From an uncultured Clostridia bacterium (GTDB lineage: Bacteria > Bacillota > Clostridia > Lachnospirales > Lachnospiraceae): a stretch of DNA of 64,000 nt. Positions 16,829 through 61,632 of the stretch are shown one piece after another. The DNA is taken from NCBI GenBank assembly GCA_947174885.1, contig CAMWKO010000007.1:1-64000 (forward strand). The letters run 5' to 3'. Below the pieces are notes generated by a model. The model made no database searches. It was given only the letters and a program-made list of their open reading frames with translations, and was not told the origin of the DNA. Each line of letters opens with the position of its first letter. The first letter of the stretch is position 1. Position numbers and translations under genes: made by a program.

Positions 16829-16899
16829 CAGGGGTGGAAGGAATCGAACCCTCCTCTGGAGTTTTGGAGACTCTTATTCTACCGATGAACTACACCCCT
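16829..16899 (-). tRNA. tRNA-Trp (CCA)
   Basis: Reverse complement AGGGGTGTAGTTCATCGGTAGAATAAGAGTCTCCAAAACTCCAGAGGAGGGTTCGATTCCTTCCACCCCTG: 7-bp acceptor, anticodon loop CTCCAAA, T-loop TTCGATT. CCA tail not encoded. Confidence 0.92.
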
Positions 16900-22755: not shown

Positions 22756-22781
22756 TATTTATTCCTACGGGTAGTGATATA

Positions 22782-22843
22782 ACATCGAGTTGTCCACAAC
22801 TCGATGTGCCGAGGGCATAAAATCTGCGATTTTATCCACGAGG
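22782..22843 (+). repeat. Double-hairpin intergenic repeat, copy A
   Basis: ACATCGAGTTGT-cc-ACAACTCGATGT followed by GGCATAAAATC-tgc-GATTTTATCC; related to copies at 25812-25951. Confidence 0.75.
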
Positions 22844-22927
22844 CAGTAGTGATAGTATAAATTTAATATATTACTTATGATAAATGAAAAAATATATATT
22901 TTATTCTAAAATTTGAGGTGATATGTA

Positions 22928-24295
22928 ATGGATATATTATTGTTAATGCTTATTGAGTTTTTTGGAATTAGTCTGATGGGAGCTTGTTTACAAAATAAAA
23001 TTAGAATATTAAAGAATTCTCAAAATATGTTTTTTGGGTGTATAGGCGGTTTAGTTACATATTTTTTAAAATTACCTGTTGCTTTCATAATTGCTGTTTG
23101 GATTCTTTGTATTATAATTTCTCATATTGTATTTAGTAAATTTATCAGTAAGAATATTTTTGATATAAAGTCTGAGAAGATATTAAGACTGATAATATCC
23201 TTTTCTGTAATTGTAATGATATTTGGCTTTTTTATTTCGATGCTTATGCAAGTAGGCATGAATAATATCTTTTATAATCCTATATTATATATTTTTCTAA
23301 TTCTTTTTGCAGTTAGTGTAATTGGCGGTATTAAAAGATTATCTTCACTTATAGATATGGTTACTAAGTATAATCCGGACGGTTCTCAGGAAGAAGATAC
23401 TGTTAAAATTTTTGAACAGAACTTAAAGGAAGGTTCTGATAAAACCGCTGACACTTTAATTGCAGAAAAGTCAGAATATAATTCTGTATATGATAATTAC
23501 CATGCAGAAAAGTTAGAATACAATTCTGTATATGATAATTACCATGCAGAAAATACGGAAAATAATGATGTATATAGTAATTACTATACAGAAAGCTCAG
23601 AAAATAATTCTGCATATGGTAATTACTATACAGAAAACCCGGAAAATAATTCTGCATATGGTAATTACTATACAGAAAACCCGGAAAATAATTTTGTATA
23701 TGGCAATTACTATGCAGAAGATTTGAAAAATAATTCTGTATATAGTGATTATTATGCAGAAAAGCAAAATAGTAATTCAAGTATATTTGAGGAAAAGAAA
23801 AAGAACATAGCTGAGATTATAATGCCGGTTTCTTTTGTTATGCTAGGAATAATTATAATAATTATTGGAATTTATAATCAGTATAAAAATACAATGTTTT
23901 TTAAACATGCAGAGAGAACAGTTGCTATTGTAACTAATATAAAAAGAATTGATAATCATAATTCTAAATCGCGTTATTCGTATTATTGTGATGTAAAATA
24001 TGAAATCGATGGAACGATATATGAAGGTACTTTAAGAATTAGTAGTGATGGATATTATCAGATAAAAAATATAACAGAATCCGGATTAGATGCAGATATG
24101 CTTATATATTATAATTTATATGATTATAATGATATTAGATTGGGGATGGAAAATAATTACGTTATGATTATAATTGGAATATTGTGGACAATAATTAGCA
24201 TACTATTATTTCATTTTATAAATAAAAATGAAAAGGGTAAGCATAACATACATACTCTGAACAATAAAAGAATTCAGTATTATAAGATAAAATAA
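22928..24295 (+). CDS. Multi-TM protein with DUF3592-like C-terminal domain and a Tyr/Asn-rich tandem repeat linker
   Basis: TM segments at both ends; 'AERTVAIVTNIKRIDNHNSKSRYSYYCDVKYEIDGTIYEGTL' resembles DUF3592; internal 14-aa repeats. Confidence 0.6.
   Translation: MDILLLMLIEFFGISLMGACLQNKIRILKNSQNMFFGCIGGLVTYFLKLPVAFIIAVWILCIIISHIVFSKFISKNIFDIKSEKILRLIISFSVIVMIFGFFISMLMQVGMNNIFYNPILYIFLILFAVSVIGGIKRLSSLIDMVTKYNPDGSQEEDTVKIFEQNLKEGSDKTADTLIAEKSEYNSVYDNYHAEKLEYNSVYDNYHAENTENNDVYSNYYTESSENNSAYGNYYTENPENNSAYGNYYTENPENNFVYGNYYAEDLKNNSVYSDYYAEKQNSNSSIFEEKKKNIAEIIMPVSFVMLGIIIIIIGIYNQYKNTMFFKHAERTVAIVTNIKRIDNHNSKSRYSYYCDVKYEIDGTIYEGTLRISSDGYYQIKNITESGLDADMLIYYNLYDYNDIRLGMENNYVMIIIGILWTIISILLFHFINKNEKGKHNIHTLNNKRIQYYKIK
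23474..23767 (+). repeat. 7 x 42-bp (14 aa) coding tandem repeat
   Basis: EYNSVYDNYHAEKL / EYNSVYDNYHAENT / ENNDVYSNYYTESS / ENNSAYGNYYTENP x2 / ENNFVYGNYYAEDL / KNNSVYSDYYAEKQ. Confidence 0.93.
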
Positions 24296-24430: not shown

Positions 24431-25828
24431 ATGGAAAAAACAATGGATAAAATTGTTGCACTTGCAAAGGCAAGAGGATTTGTATATCCGGGTTCGGAAA
24501 TCTATGGAGGACTAGCTAATACTTGGGATTATGGTAATCTTGGAGTAGAGCTTAAAAATAATGTAAAAAAAGCCTGGTGGTCAAAATTCATTCAGGAAAA
24601 TCCATATAATGTAGGTGTGGATTGTGCTATTCTTATGAATCCACAGACCTGGGTTGCTTCAGGACACTTAGGAGGTTTTGCAGATCCGCTTATGGATTGT
24701 AAAGCATGTAAGGAAAGATTCAGAGCCGATAAGCTTATTGAAGACTATATGGAAGAAAACGGAATTACAATAGAAGGCTCTGTAGATGCCTGGTCAAATG
24801 AAGAAATGCAAAACTACATAGAAGAAAAAAATATCTGTTGTCCGTCCTGCGGTAAACATGATTTTACGGAAATCCGTCAGTTTAATCTTATGTTTAAAAC
24901 CTTTCAGGGAGTAACTGAGGATGCAAAAAATACAGTATACCTAAGACCGGAAACTGCGCAGGGTATCTTTGTCAATTTCAAGAACGTTCAAAGAACCTCC
25001 AGAAAGAAAATTCCATTCGGAATCGGTCAGATAGGTAAATCATTTAGAAATGAAATTACACCGGGTAATTTCACTTTCAGAACAAGAGAATTTGAGCAGA
25101 TGGAATTGGAATTTTTCTGTGAACCGGGAACAGACTTAGAGTGGTTTGCATATTGGAAAGATTTCTGTATTAACTGGTTAAAAGCACTTGGCATGAAAGA
25201 TGATGAAATGAGGGCAAGAGACCATTCACCGGAGGAACTTTGTTTTTATAGCAAGGCTACAACAGATATTGAATTCTTATTCCCATTTGGCTGGGGTGAG
25301 CTTTGGGGTATTGCCGACAGAACGGATTATGACCTTACACAGCACCAGAATACTTCAGGTGAACCAATGGATTACTTTGATGATGAGAAGAAGGAAAAAT
25401 ATATTCCGTATGTTATCGAGCCTTCGCTTGGTGCAGACAGAGTAACATTAGCTTTTCTTTGTGCTGCATATGACGAAGAAGAGCTTGAGGGCGGAGATGT
25501 AAGAACAGTGCTTCATTTCCATCCTGCACTTGCACCTGTAAAGATTGGTGTATTACCGCTTTCAAAGAAGCTTAATGAGGGTGCGGAAAAAATCTTTATG
25601 GAGCTTTCAAAGAAGTACAACTGTGAATTTGATGACAGAGGAAATATCGGAAAGAGATACAGAAGACAGGATGAAATAGGTACACCTTTCTGTATTACTT
25701 ATGACTTTGAATCTGAAACGGACGGATGTGTAACCGTAAGAGACAGAGATACAATGGAACAGGAAAGAGTAAAGATTGAGGATTTAAAATCATATTTTGA
25801 ACAGAAGTTTGAAATAGCACTGAGTTGA
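24431..25828 (+). CDS. glyS: Glycyl-tRNA synthetase (single-chain GlyQS type)
   Basis: '[32 protein letters not shown]', '[16 protein letters not shown]', '[33 protein letters not shown]', '[14 protein letters not shown]'. Confidence 0.97.
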
Positions 25829-25951
25829 GAAGCAACTCAGTGCGCCGAGTGCATAAAATCTGTGATTTTATCCACGAGGAAAAATAGCACTGAGTTGAGA
25901 AGCAACTCAGTGCGCTGAGTGCATAAAATCTATGATTTTATCCACTCAGCA
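25812..25951 (+). repeat. 2 x 70-bp tandem copies of the double-hairpin repeat (copies B and C)
   Basis: aaatagcactgagttgagaagcaactcagtgcgc(c/t)gagtgcataaaatct(g/a)tgattttatccac... repeated at 25812 and 25882; the first copy starts inside the last glyS codons. Confidence 0.93.
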
Positions 25952-34405: not shown

Positions 34406-34552
34406 TTGAGTATTTTTTATTAAAACAAATAAATAACACTCTTGTTATTGGTACAATTTTTGTATCAGGACAAGAGTGTTTTTTGTGCAATATATCTATG
34501 TTGCCTTTGGCAACAAGACTTTTTGAAGCTAAAAAAAATACGGAAACTCAAG
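34406..34552. mobile_element. Palindromic MITE-like element, copy E1 (degenerate/partial)
   Basis: Right half 'tctatgttgcctttggcaacaagactttttgaagctaaaaaaaatacggaaactcaag' matches E2/E3; left half diverged. Confidence 0.65.
34435..34484 (+). terminator. Rho-independent terminator after vanS-like gene
   Basis: AACACTCTTGT...ACAAGAGTGTTTTTT hairpin with U-tract. Confidence 0.8.
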
Positions 34553-48914: not shown

Positions 48915-48991
48915 AAGAATCTCCTTGTAGAATAAAATTTATGAATATATTATAACTTATATTGATGATAAAAAAAATATTTTTTATCATA

Positions 48992-49135
48992 GAGTTTCTA
49001 TTTTTTTATTTTTTGCTTCAAAAAGTTGCAGATGAAAGTTCACTTTCATCTGCAACTTTTTTTTTTGCAAGATGTCTATGTTGCCTTTGGCAACAAGACT
49101 TTTTGAAGCAAAAAATAAAAAAATAGAAACTTAAG
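48992..49135. mobile_element. Palindromic MITE-like element, copy E2
   Basis: gagtttctatttttttattttttgcttcaaaaa...tttttgaagcaaaaaataaaaaaatagaaactt TIRs; central hairpin GTTGCAGATGAAAGTTCACTTTCATCTGCAAC; lacks the left arm. Confidence 0.85.
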
Positions 49136-49342: not shown

Positions 49343-50329
49343 ATGAGTACACGTATTGGAATTATTGGTTATGGAAATTTGGGACGAGGTGTAGAATGTG
49401 CTATACGTCAGAATAATGATATGGAGTTAGTAGCGGTATTTACACGAAGAGATCCTGCTACAGTATCCATTCTTACAGATACAGCTAAGGTTTGCAGTGT
49501 TGACGGGATATCAGAATGGAAAGATAAAATAGATGTTATGATTTTATGTGGCGGTAGTGCAACAGATTTACCGACACAGACACCGGAGTATGTAAAATAC
49601 TTTAATGTAGTTGACAGCTTTGACACTCATGCCCGTATTCCCGAGCATTTTTCAAAAGTAGATGCAGCTGCAAAGGAAAGCGGACATATAGGTATTATCT
49701 CAGTGGGTTGGGACCCAGGAATGTTTTCCCTTAATCGTCTTTATGCAAATGCTATTTTGCCGGAAGGAAGTGACTATACCTTCTGGGGAAAGGGTGTAAG
49801 TCAGGGACATTCAGATGCTATCAGGCGTGTTCCGGGAGTTAAAAATGCAAAGCAGTATACTATACCGGTAGACAGTACTTTAGAAGCAGTTCGCGAAGGC
49901 TCAAATCCTGAGCTTACTACAAGACAGAAGCACACAAGAGAATGTTTTGTAGTTCTTGAAGAGGGTGCAGATGCAGCAAAAGTTGAAGAAGCCATTAAAA
50001 CTATGCCAAACTATTTTGCTGATTATGATACTACAGTTCATTTTATATCAGAAGAAGAGCTTATTGCAAATCATAGCGGAATACCACATGGAGGCTTTGT
50101 AATAAGAAGTGGTTTAACAGGCTGGAATAATGAAAATAAACACATTATTGAGTATAGCTTAAAGCTTGATTCAAATCCTGAATTTACTACAAGTGTTCTT
50201 ATAGCTTATGCCAGAGCAGCACATCGTCTTGCAAAAGAAGGACAGAGTGGCTGTAAAACGGTATTTGATATTGCACCGTCATATCTTAGTGCAAAAAGCG
50301 GTGAGGAATTAAGGGCTGCAATGTTATAA
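49343..50329 (+). CDS. ddh: meso-Diaminopimelate D-dehydrogenase
   Basis: 'TRIGIIGYGNLGRGVECAIRQNNDMELVAVFTRRDP', 'VVDSFDTHARIPEHF', 'VGWDPGMFSLNRLYANAILPEGSDYTFWGKGVSQGHSDAIRRV'. Confidence 0.96.
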   Translation: MSTRIGIIGYGNLGRGVECAIRQNNDMELVAVFTRRDPATVSILTDTAKVCSVDGISEWKDKIDVMILCGGSATDLPTQTPEYVKYFNVVDSFDTHARIPEHFSKVDAAAKESGHIGIISVGWDPGMFSLNRLYANAILPEGSDYTFWGKGVSQGHSDAIRRVPGVKNAKQYTIPVDSTLEAVREGSNPELTTRQKHTRECFVVLEEGADAAKVEEAIKTMPNYFADYDTTVHFISEEELIANHSGIPHGGFVIRSGLTGWNNENKHIIEYSLKLDSNPEFTTSVLIAYARAAHRLAKEGQSGCKTVFDIAPSYLSAKSGEELRAAML

Positions 50330-50339
50330 TGCAGGTAAT

Positions 50340-50524
50340 CTTGAGTTTCCGTATTTTTATTTTTAGCTTCAAAAAGCTTACATCATCATAACAATGTAAG
50401 CATCTTGCACAAAAAATCACAGATGAAAACTCACTTTCATCTGCAACTTTTTTTGCAAGATGTCTATGTTGCCTTTGGCAACAAGACTTTTTAAAGCTAA
50501 AAATAAAAAATACGGAAACTCTAA
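50340..50524. mobile_element. Palindromic MITE-like element, copy E3
   Basis: TIR CTTGAGTTTCCGTATTTTTATTTTTAGCTTCAAAAAG ... TTAAAGCTAAAAATAAAAAATACGGAAACTC; exactly flanked by 15-bp direct repeats TATAATGCAGGTAAT (50325-50339, 50525-50539). Confidence 0.92.
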
Positions 50525-50632
50525 TATAATGCAGGTAATATGTTTACATCGTTTTAAAACTTTAGACTGCATTATCCTGAAAATTCAAAATACTAAAACT
50601 CAGGAATAAAAAATAAAAATTTACTTAATTAT

Positions 50633-52491: not shown

Positions 52492-52525
52492 AAATTTTAA
52501 TGCTGAAGTTCTGATAATATTAAAT

Positions 52526-52707
52526 CTTGAGTTTTCGTATTTTTATTTCTAGGTTTAAAAAGTTATGCTGCCTGTTGCAACATATACATCCTGTACAAAA
52601 ATTGCAGATGAAAGTAAACTTTAATCTACGATTTTTTGCAGGATGCTTACATTAATTATACTGCTGTAAGCTGTTTAAACTTAAAAATAAAAATACGGAA
52701 ACTCAAG
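52526..52707. mobile_element. Palindromic MITE-like element, copy E4
   Basis: CTTGAGTTTTCGTATTTTTATTT ... AAAAATAAAAATACGGAAACTCAAG, exactly flanked by 8-bp direct repeat TATTAAAT (52518-52525 and 52708-52715). Confidence 0.93.
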
Positions 52708-52777
52708 TATTAAATACATTGACATTTTATTGTATTATGCTAAACTACAAGAAATTTAAGTAGTGGAAGGTTAATCC

Positions 52778-54109
52778 GTGGATACAAGTATTGATTTAGT
52801 AAAAGGAAAAGTTTTGAGAGTATTGATTTTATTTTCAATACCGTTTTTATTTTCAAACATTTTTCAGCAGCTATATAATATGATTGATACCTTTATAGTG
52901 GGTAATGCACTGGATGAAAGTGCATTGGCTGCTATAGGTGCCTGTGGCGCAATCTATGAGCTTTTGGTAGGATTTGCAGTAGGTATTGGTAATGGGCTTA
53001 GTATTATAGTGGCAAAATATTTTGGTGCAGGGGATGAAAAAATGGTACGCAAGTCGGTAGGCGCAGCAATTATTATAGGACTGATAGTAACAGTTGTGCT
53101 TATGATATTTTCTGTGACTTTGCTATATCCAATGCTGAATCTGCTCAATACACCTGCTGATATCATCGATGAAGCATATTCTTATATTGGAATTATAGGA
53201 ATATTTGTAGGAGTAATGCTTGCTTATAATTTGTTGGCGGGTTTTTTAAAAGCTATTGGTAACAGCTTTATGCCACTTGTATTTTTGATTATATCAACTG
53301 TTATAAATATTATATTGGATTATATATTTATCGTAAATCTGGGCATAGGAATTAAGGGGGCAGCAATAGCAACTGTTTTGGCGCAGCTTATATCGGCTGT
53401 TTTGTGTGGTGTTTTCATATATAAAAAATATAGATATATATTACCTGATAAAGAGGATATGAAGGTGGATAGGCAGCTATATGGTGAATTGTGGGCACAG
53501 GGACTTTCAATGGGATTTATGTCTTCAATAGTTTCTATAGGCACGGTTGTTTTACAGTACTCTATTAATGGATTGGGAACAATGATTATAGCAGGTCATA
53601 CGGCAGCCAGAAAAATATTTGCATTTTCTACCCTTCCCATTACTACATTGGGAATGTCTATTACTACTTATGTGTCACAAAATAAGGGTGCCGGAAAAAA
53701 GGATAGAATATTAAAAGGAGCAAAATACGCAAATGTTATGACTACAGTATGGAGTATAATTGCTGCTGTTATATTGATACCTTTCTCAGAGATATTAGTA
53801 CGGCTTTTGTCAGGCTCGGAAAACATGGAAGTATTGACAAATGGTGCCAATTACCTGAAATTCAATGTACTGTTTTATATACCGTTGGGGATTCTTATTA
53901 ATATGAGATGTATACTGCAAGGTATTGGATATAAGATTTTACCGTTGATATCAAGTATTATTGAACTTCTGGGAAAAGTAGTATTTACATTCCTTCTTAT
54001 TCCTGACCTTAATTATACGGGTGTTATAATATGTGAGCCTGTAGTATGGTGTCTTATGGCAATACAGCTTACTGTATCCTTTTACAGGAATCGATATATC
54101 CGGGATTAG
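52778..54109 (+). CDS. MATE family efflux transporter
   Basis: 'IPFLFSNIFQQLYNMIDTFIVGNALDESALAAIGACGAIYELLVGFAVGIGNGLSIIVAKYFGAGDE', 12 TM. Confidence 0.93.
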   Translation: MDTSIDLVKGKVLRVLILFSIPFLFSNIFQQLYNMIDTFIVGNALDESALAAIGACGAIYELLVGFAVGIGNGLSIIVAKYFGAGDEKMVRKSVGAAIIIGLIVTVVLMIFSVTLLYPMLNLLNTPADIIDEAYSYIGIIGIFVGVMLAYNLLAGFLKAIGNSFMPLVFLIISTVINIILDYIFIVNLGIGIKGAAIATVLAQLISAVLCGVFIYKKYRYILPDKEDMKVDRQLYGELWAQGLSMGFMSSIVSIGTVVLQYSINGLGTMIIAGHTAARKIFAFSTLPITTLGMSITTYVSQNKGAGKKDRILKGAKYANVMTTVWSIIAAVILIPFSEILVRLLSGSENMEVLTNGANYLKFNVLFYIPLGILINMRCILQGIGYKILPLISSIIELLGKVVFTFLLIPDLNYTGVIICEPVVWCLMAIQLTVSFYRNRYIRD

Positions 54110-54291
54110 AGTTTCCGTATTTTTTTATTTTTGGATTCAAAAAGTCTTGTTGCCAAAGGCAACATAGACATCTTGCACAAAAAGTTGCAGATGAAAGTTC
54201 ACTTTTATCTACAATTTTTTGTGCAAGATGCTTACATCATATGATGATGTAAGCTTTTTGAAGCCAAAAATAAAAAATACGGAAACTCAAG
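54106..54291. mobile_element. Palindromic MITE-like element, copy E5
   Basis: TTAGAGTTTCCGTATTTTTTTATTTTTGG ... CCAAAAATAAAAAATACGGAAACTCAAG; flanked by ATCCGGGA (54098-54105) and ATTCGGGA (54292-54299). Confidence 0.92.
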
Positions 54292-54509
54292 ATTCGGGAA
54301 AGGTAATGAATATTAAAACTTTTAAGGTATGCCATGACAGTAATAGACATAATTCATTGGTAAAAACTCATAAATTTTGGAAATAAATAATAAAAAACTT
54401 ATAAAAAATGCAAAAAAGGTATTGAAATATTTAATGAATGTTATTATAATATAGCTATTAGTAACTTGATTACTTAAAAACAACATTTATAAAAGAAAGG
54501 GATTGAAAA

Positions 54510-61515: not shown

Positions 61516-61632
61516 TCAGAGTTTTTTGTATTTATTATTTTTAGCTTTAAAAAGTCCTGCTGAAATAGGCAACTAATCATTATGATAATATAAGCTTTTT
61601 GAAATTAAAAATAGAAGATACGGAAGCTTAAG
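61516..61632. mobile_element. Palindromic MITE-like element, copy E6 (short, centre deleted)
   Basis: gagttttttgtatttattatttttagctttaaaaagtcctgctgaaataggcaac...taagctttttgaaattaaaaatagaagatacggaagcttaag. Confidence 0.75.

Follow-up and report, generated by a model that had tools for sequence, protein, structure and literature searches.

A multi-copy family of cloverleaf-folding MITEs in a Lachnospiraceae genome and a putative IS4-type helper with the same tips

Several families of short bacterial repeats, including the RUP, BOX, Correia and ERIC MITEs, are non-coding elements of <500 bp with terminal inverted repeats (TIRs), AT-rich intergenic targets and stable stem-loops (PMC10969869), features which they share with the family described here. 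The likeness extends to QMITE2 of Coxiella burnetii, which in the published passages that describe it is 150-190 bp long, is flanked by direct repeats of 7-11 nt and occurs in large and small versions (PMC5896051, PMC10969869); QMITE2 also lies mostly in 3' untranslated or intergenic sequence, its ends extend a few bp into the 3' ends of genes and its predicted fold is strong. For the IS4 family of insertion sequences (IS), tables of the published survey give the sizes, ends and repeat lengths of the subgroups, and the YREK motif is named (PMC2266710); the putative helper reported below resembles this family in its length of ~1,572 bp, in its DDE transposase with a complete YREK motif and in duplicating 8-11 bp.

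The window analyzed here is a stretch of 64,000 nucleotides from a Lachnospiraceae genome (G000, 2.62 Mb in 56 contigs). A sequence-only reading of this window had described E4 and E5 as non-coding elements bounded by TIRs and flanked by TATTAAAT on both sides and by ATCCGGGA and ATTCGGGA, respectively. Direct reading bore this out, and no genes were found within E4 or E5 (Table 1). Four further copies had been proposed, E1, E2, E3 and E6, all of which proved real, but only E3 is intact, being the third intact copy in the window and opposite in orientation to E4 and E5, whereas the remaining three are decayed or arm-deleted. A tree of aligned copies placed E4 in a subfamily of four copies. One host gene ends within a family copy: E5 contributes the last bases of a 443-aa ORF (52778-54109), including its TAG stop, and joining the E5 flanks without the element gave an ORF one residue longer.

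Table 1 Features of the repeat family in the 64-kb window
Feature	Position	Strand	Description	Basis
E4	52526..52707	+	182 bp, older subfamily, CTTGAG-type at both tips	ends read directly, family search, fold, tree
E4 left target duplication	52518..52525	.	TATTAAAT	read directly, duplication scan
E4 right target duplication	52708..52715	.	TATTAAAT	read directly, duplication scan
E5	54106..54291	+	186 bp, main subfamily, TTAGAG / CTCAAG tips	read directly, DNA fold
E5 left target duplication	54098..54105	.	ATCCGGGA	read directly, duplication scan
E5 right target duplication	54292..54299	.	ATTCGGGA, 7/8 match to left	read directly, duplication scan
E5 hairpin arm A	54144..54169	+	TTGCC AAA GGCAA	DNA fold, consensus structure
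E5 central hairpin arm C	54170..54229	+	28 consensus pairs	fold, consensus structure
E5 hairpin arm B	54230..54254	+	GCTTACATCAT ... ATGATGTAAGC, terminator-like match too	fold, terminator scan
E3	50340..50524	-	185 bp, intact, main subfamily	family search, duplication scan, alignment
E3 left direct repeat	50325..50339	.	TATAATGCAGGTAAT, 15 bp	long-repeat scan, direct reading
E3 right direct repeat	50525..50539	.	TATAATGCAGGTAAT, 15 bp	long-repeat scan, direct reading
E2	48989..49135	-	two-arm copy, altered TIR TTTCTATTTTTTTATTTTTTGCTTCAAAAAG in both outer arms, without clear duplication	
E1	34480..34552	-	right part of decayed copy, clean CTCAAG end, left half diverged	
E6	61519..61632	.	decayed copy, approximate ends	

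Other repeats were also seen in the window. Eight overlapping 84-nt matches at 42-bp spacing (23419-23796), within an ORF at 22928-24295, correspond to a 14-residue protein tandem repeat. A second intergenic repeat family of ~70 bp (ATAAAATCTGTGATTTTATCCACGAGG) lies at 22776-22845 and 25812-25951, with two copies in tandem, and a hairpin repeat resembling it ends one of the small G000 contigs (L076).

Searching the whole genome with E4 as a DNA query placed the family at at least 40 distinct sites at E ≤ 0.001, with the best 40 of 230 candidates scored, and the TIR 14-mer TACGGAAACTCAAG with ≤1 mismatch gave 134 genome matches compared with 2 for a reversed-pattern control (75 of the matches listed being exact). 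Pairing of tips within the fetched stretches of G000 yielded 91 candidate elements. Statistics were based on the 65 with ≤2 mismatches across the two 15-base ends, and the other 26 pairs, which had poor ends and surely include some chance pairs, were left out. In the duplication scan these well-ended copies were 44-187 bp long, plus a single one of 203 bp, and they carried no transposase ORF. Perfect direct repeats of 7-13 bp flanked 30/65 copies, and repeats with ≤1 mismatch flanked 46/65, compared with means of 0.045 and 1.0, respectively, in 200 shuffled left-right pairings. When longer repeats were allowed, 31/65 were perfect, with lengths of 7 (3 copies), 8 (13), 9 (11), 10 (2), 11 (1) and 15 bp (1, E3), while the scan for 7-13 bp found none at 19 of the 65, E3 with its 15 bp being among them. 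Perfect repeats were 87% A+T versus 76% in the flanks.

The proposal of a MITE-like family, first made from copies in the window, held genome-wide by the E4 search, by the tip count against its control and by the duplications against shuffles, and neither the family nor its flanking repeats are due to chance. The 8-bp target duplication claimed for it is likewise real and far above the shuffled null, but its length is variable, mostly 8-9 bp within a range of 7-11 bp, with one of 15 bp. The copies are shorter than ~500 bp, lack a transposase gene, have TIRs and target duplications, and are numerous and dispersed. Several contig breaks in the assembly are explained by family copies. On one contig (L068, 1-360), three copies or parts of copies lie head to tail with the same ATATTTAATTTA between them, which forms a 12-bp duplication around the middle copy and could reflect tandem duplication or repeated insertion. 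Elsewhere (L054, 1380-1478), a short palindrome with GGGGCTGT(C/T)GCA tips sits beside a family tip; it looks like a different MITE-like element that inserted into a copy of the family.

To describe the fold of the family, we used a structure alignment of 42 of the 91 copies, those 175-190 bp long, with a mean column identity of 92%. The consensus was a near-perfect four-way cloverleaf, built of a 37-pair outer stem plus three hairpin arms of 11, 28 and 11 pairs, with hardly any unpaired base outside the loops and with pairing in 94.4% of alignment cells. RNAalifold unaided returned a similar structure of 62 pairs, and fold z-scores were -17.8 for E5 as DNA and -11.3 for E4 as RNA. Changes on both sides were found in 21/87 pairs, compared with 10.5 (sd 2.1) in shuffled alignments and 5-8 when the structure was slid, counts which kinship of the copies tends to raise. 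Renewal of the structure in master copies would also leave this pattern, so that the covariation shows that symmetry is kept, and not the reason for it.

The arms also behaved as modules. Four copies of 122 bp kept arms A and B, and three of these had a duplication of 8-9 bp (≤1 mismatch), each of different sequence and at a different site; three copies of 145-146 bp kept arms C and B; and in copies of 70-79 bp little besides the stem remained. Because arm-deleted copies have their own, different duplications, these shortened forms very probably transposed as well, and arm loss very probably does not stop movement. The same altered TIR on both outer arms of E2 suggests that one arm was copied onto the other.

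The maintained symmetry of the arms is one oddity of the family, and a lead to another is that interior orientation may not be tied to the tips. The two tips differ: one reads CTTGAG, and the opposite one is usually TTAGAG, E5 being an example. When the 42 copies were set with arm A on the left, the TTAGAG-type tip lay on the left in 17 and on the right in 13, the CTTGAG-type occupied both ends in 9, the TTAGAG-type occupied both in none, and 3 were ambiguous. Orientation changes on the interior tree numbered 10 versus a shuffled mean of 9.9, on a poorly resolved tree with 5/39 branches starred, and because this tree is weak, frequent interior inversion is treated as a lead only. Inversion of QMITE2 between strains is noted in a table footnote (PMC5896051). 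A tentative and rather doubtful explanation is that the cloverleaf is renewed at the DNA level, in that template-switching or cruciform processing might copy arm onto arm and flip the interior relative to the tip types, which would make the element a self-correcting palindrome instead of a decaying IS remnant, with arms that would act as exchangeable modules dispensable for mobility.

A tip scan of 200 genomes of the bacterial family revealed paired tips ~1,573 bp apart in G207, G051 and G206, bounding an IS with a frame of 433-443 codons. This IS is ~1,572 bp long and carries the same 14-bp tip as the MITE, CTTGAGTTTCCG(C/T)A. The only Pfam family on its transposase was DDE_Tnp_1 (PF01609; score 42.2 bits, threshold 23), while the best NCBIfam IS4 equivalog, NF033592, scored 49.1 bits against a cut-off of 115, so that the protein is classed by these profiles as IS4-like, yet outside the named NCBIfam equivalogs. 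The catalytic aspartates and a complete YREK motif, YFSRW(R/K)IEEYFRCKK, were present in 8/8 aligned transposases, with motif spacing judged by eye, and no sequence relative of the transposase was found in the PDB.

Searches with the transposase detected it in 29/299 genomes of the bacterial family, many with only fragments and G000 not among them. Eighty named loci, nearly all from Lachnospiraceae or other Clostridia, included 36 with both tips, 1424-1589 bp apart (34 at 1562-1589 bp, the other two at 1441 and 1424 bp). CTTGAGTTTCCGCA stood at both ends in 21 of these 36 full-length copies. Perfect duplications of 8 (9 copies), 9 (7), 10 (3) or 11 bp (1) flanked 20/36, compared with 0 in the shuffled null, and 13/36 were without duplication. 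One full-length copy of this type, at 78% identity (L258, 1501-2739), lies on a contig assigned to Candidatus Brocadia, through either horizontal transfer or a binning error.

Ends reading CTTGAGTTTCCGTA occurred once in one locus (L247) and twice in another (L259). In a sister species of the same genus (G005), IS ends matched CTTGAGTTTCCGTA exactly, and transposase fragments showed 73-77% identity; both CGCA- and CGTA-type IS ends were present there, interrupted by contig ends. Among the eight genomes of the genus, only G000 (134 tips) and G005 (36) were tip-rich. The G005 loci (L117-L146) represent two related multi-copy ISs, one with CGCA and one with CGTA tips. Most of their internal sequence is missing from the assembly, many contigs stopping ~124 bp inside. 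The sequence-only reading had advised looking for a full-length IS with the same TIRs; an IS with the same 14-bp tip exists in related Lachnospiraceae, and its duplications have the same lengths as those of the MITE. Only the tip is common to MITE and IS ends, the remainder of the 37-bp stem being absent from the IS ends, and because only the tips match, the MITE interior probably derives from non-IS or heavily remodelled DNA.

The same reading had noted that no mobilizing transposase was visible in the window, and none was found in the whole genome assembly either: the transposase query (P0001) gave no match in G000, and a collapsed IS sought at small contigs and contig starts was not seen, the breaks lying inside short family copies. 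The only DDE_Tnp_1 match in G000, an interrupted gene at C3:97944-98405, was rejected as a helper (best E 0.39 against P0001).

Within the sequence searched, the family appears confined to its source species. The full E5 DNA matched only its own genome among 40 relatives, apart from one weak end match (G022). A 35-base core had no match in a genome contig collection that may omit near records, nor did a 27-base stem piece in a viral contig collection. No empty site was found, either with MATE protein and DNA queries in seven congeners, where the matches were too diverged for the comparison, or with 54 joined-flank queries against the fetched own-genome sequence, which returned only self or element-tail matches.

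We considered whether the cloverleaf acts as RNA, as a terminator, mRNA 3'-end stabilizer or small RNA dispersed through the genome, with selection keeping its arms paired. Beyond the strong fold and the both-side changes described above, this reading would fit the terminator-like matches in the 48-62 kb region (21 versus 5.7 in shuffled sequence, several inside elements) and the placement of 30 copies between same-strand genes, at a median of ~42 bp from the upstream stop and ~176 bp from the downstream start (by hand). Nearly all copies (41/42) were intergenic by simple ORF calls. However, only 20 of these 30 lie closer to the upstream stop, for which promoter avoidance would also account, and none of the elements matched Rfam 15 at the gathering score, the matches in the window being a T-box leader (1721-2027) and a tRNA (16829-16899), both outside elements. 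If RNA folding were under selection after insertion, G-U should exceed A-C mismatches in the transcribed strand, and no excess was seen (72 versus 74 on the upstream-gene strand; 95 versus 91 over all 42 copies). RNA-level selection was not adopted in view of this absence of bias, and a dispersed RNA element is in our view improbable. The arms of the copies score as terminators, and a side effect on transcription is plausible.

Two other modes of spread would account for part of these data. The ISL3, IS256 and IS1595 families also generate 8-bp duplications, and the sequence-only reading had named them as possible sources; the tip-sharing IS instead carries DDE_Tnp_1 and a complete YREK motif of IS4 type, with none of those families' transposase domains, and it makes duplications of 8-11 bp, the same spectrum as for the MITE, which makes movement by one of those families very unlikely. 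Palindromes of the REP/BIME type, mobilized by a Y1 (HUH) transposase or dispersed through recombination, are likewise many-copy intergenic hairpin repeats, and their flanking repeats would then be fortuitous. The target duplications are far above chance, the long TIRs have fixed tips, and HUH transposition is not known to leave a target duplication, all of which renders this origin extremely improbable.

Taken together, the comparisons of tips and duplications make it very likely that the family is a non-autonomous, IS-derived MITE moved in trans, and we infer that the IS transposase was the mover of the G000 copies. An IS4-type DDE transposase, supplied by the ~1,572-bp IS, would have bound the MITE tips and inserted the element by a staggered cut, duplicating 8-11 bp of AT-rich target, and the family would then have multiplied to dozens of copies within one species. 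The helper may since have been lost from the genome, or may be missing from the assembly, and for either reason the copies are now probably immobile. With a MITE family and a plausible helper both at hand, mobilization in trans by an IS4-type transposase becomes directly testable, and the 8-11 bp duplications together with the modular cloverleaf provide a clean data set on the upkeep of palindrome symmetry.

The open-licence literature searched yielded no description of this MITE family, while the type of element is already known, in that it works and tests as a MITE. The putative helper is apparently of IS4 type by its sequence features and fits no published subgroup fully. With the ISPepr1 subgroup, as tabulated, it shares a length of 1500-1600 bp, its end CTTGAGTTT is a near match to YT-AA-YTT that differs at position 4, and its duplications of 8-11 bp, with 11 of the 20 perfect ones longer than 8 bp, contrast with repeats of 7-8 bp (PMC2266710). 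As it departs from ISPepr1 in tip and repeat length, we did not file it there. The IS4Sa subgroup in the same tables has 8-10 bp repeats but CA ends (PMC2266710). QMITE2 differs from the present family in carrying a GTAG REP, an IS1111 target, and inter-strain conservation is reported for it (PMC5896051); compared by description, the present family instead has tips that match an IS4-type IS and a three-arm cloverleaf. From RUP, BOX, Correia and ERIC it is set apart by its modular arms and by an interior whose orientation appears not to be fixed relative to the two tip types.
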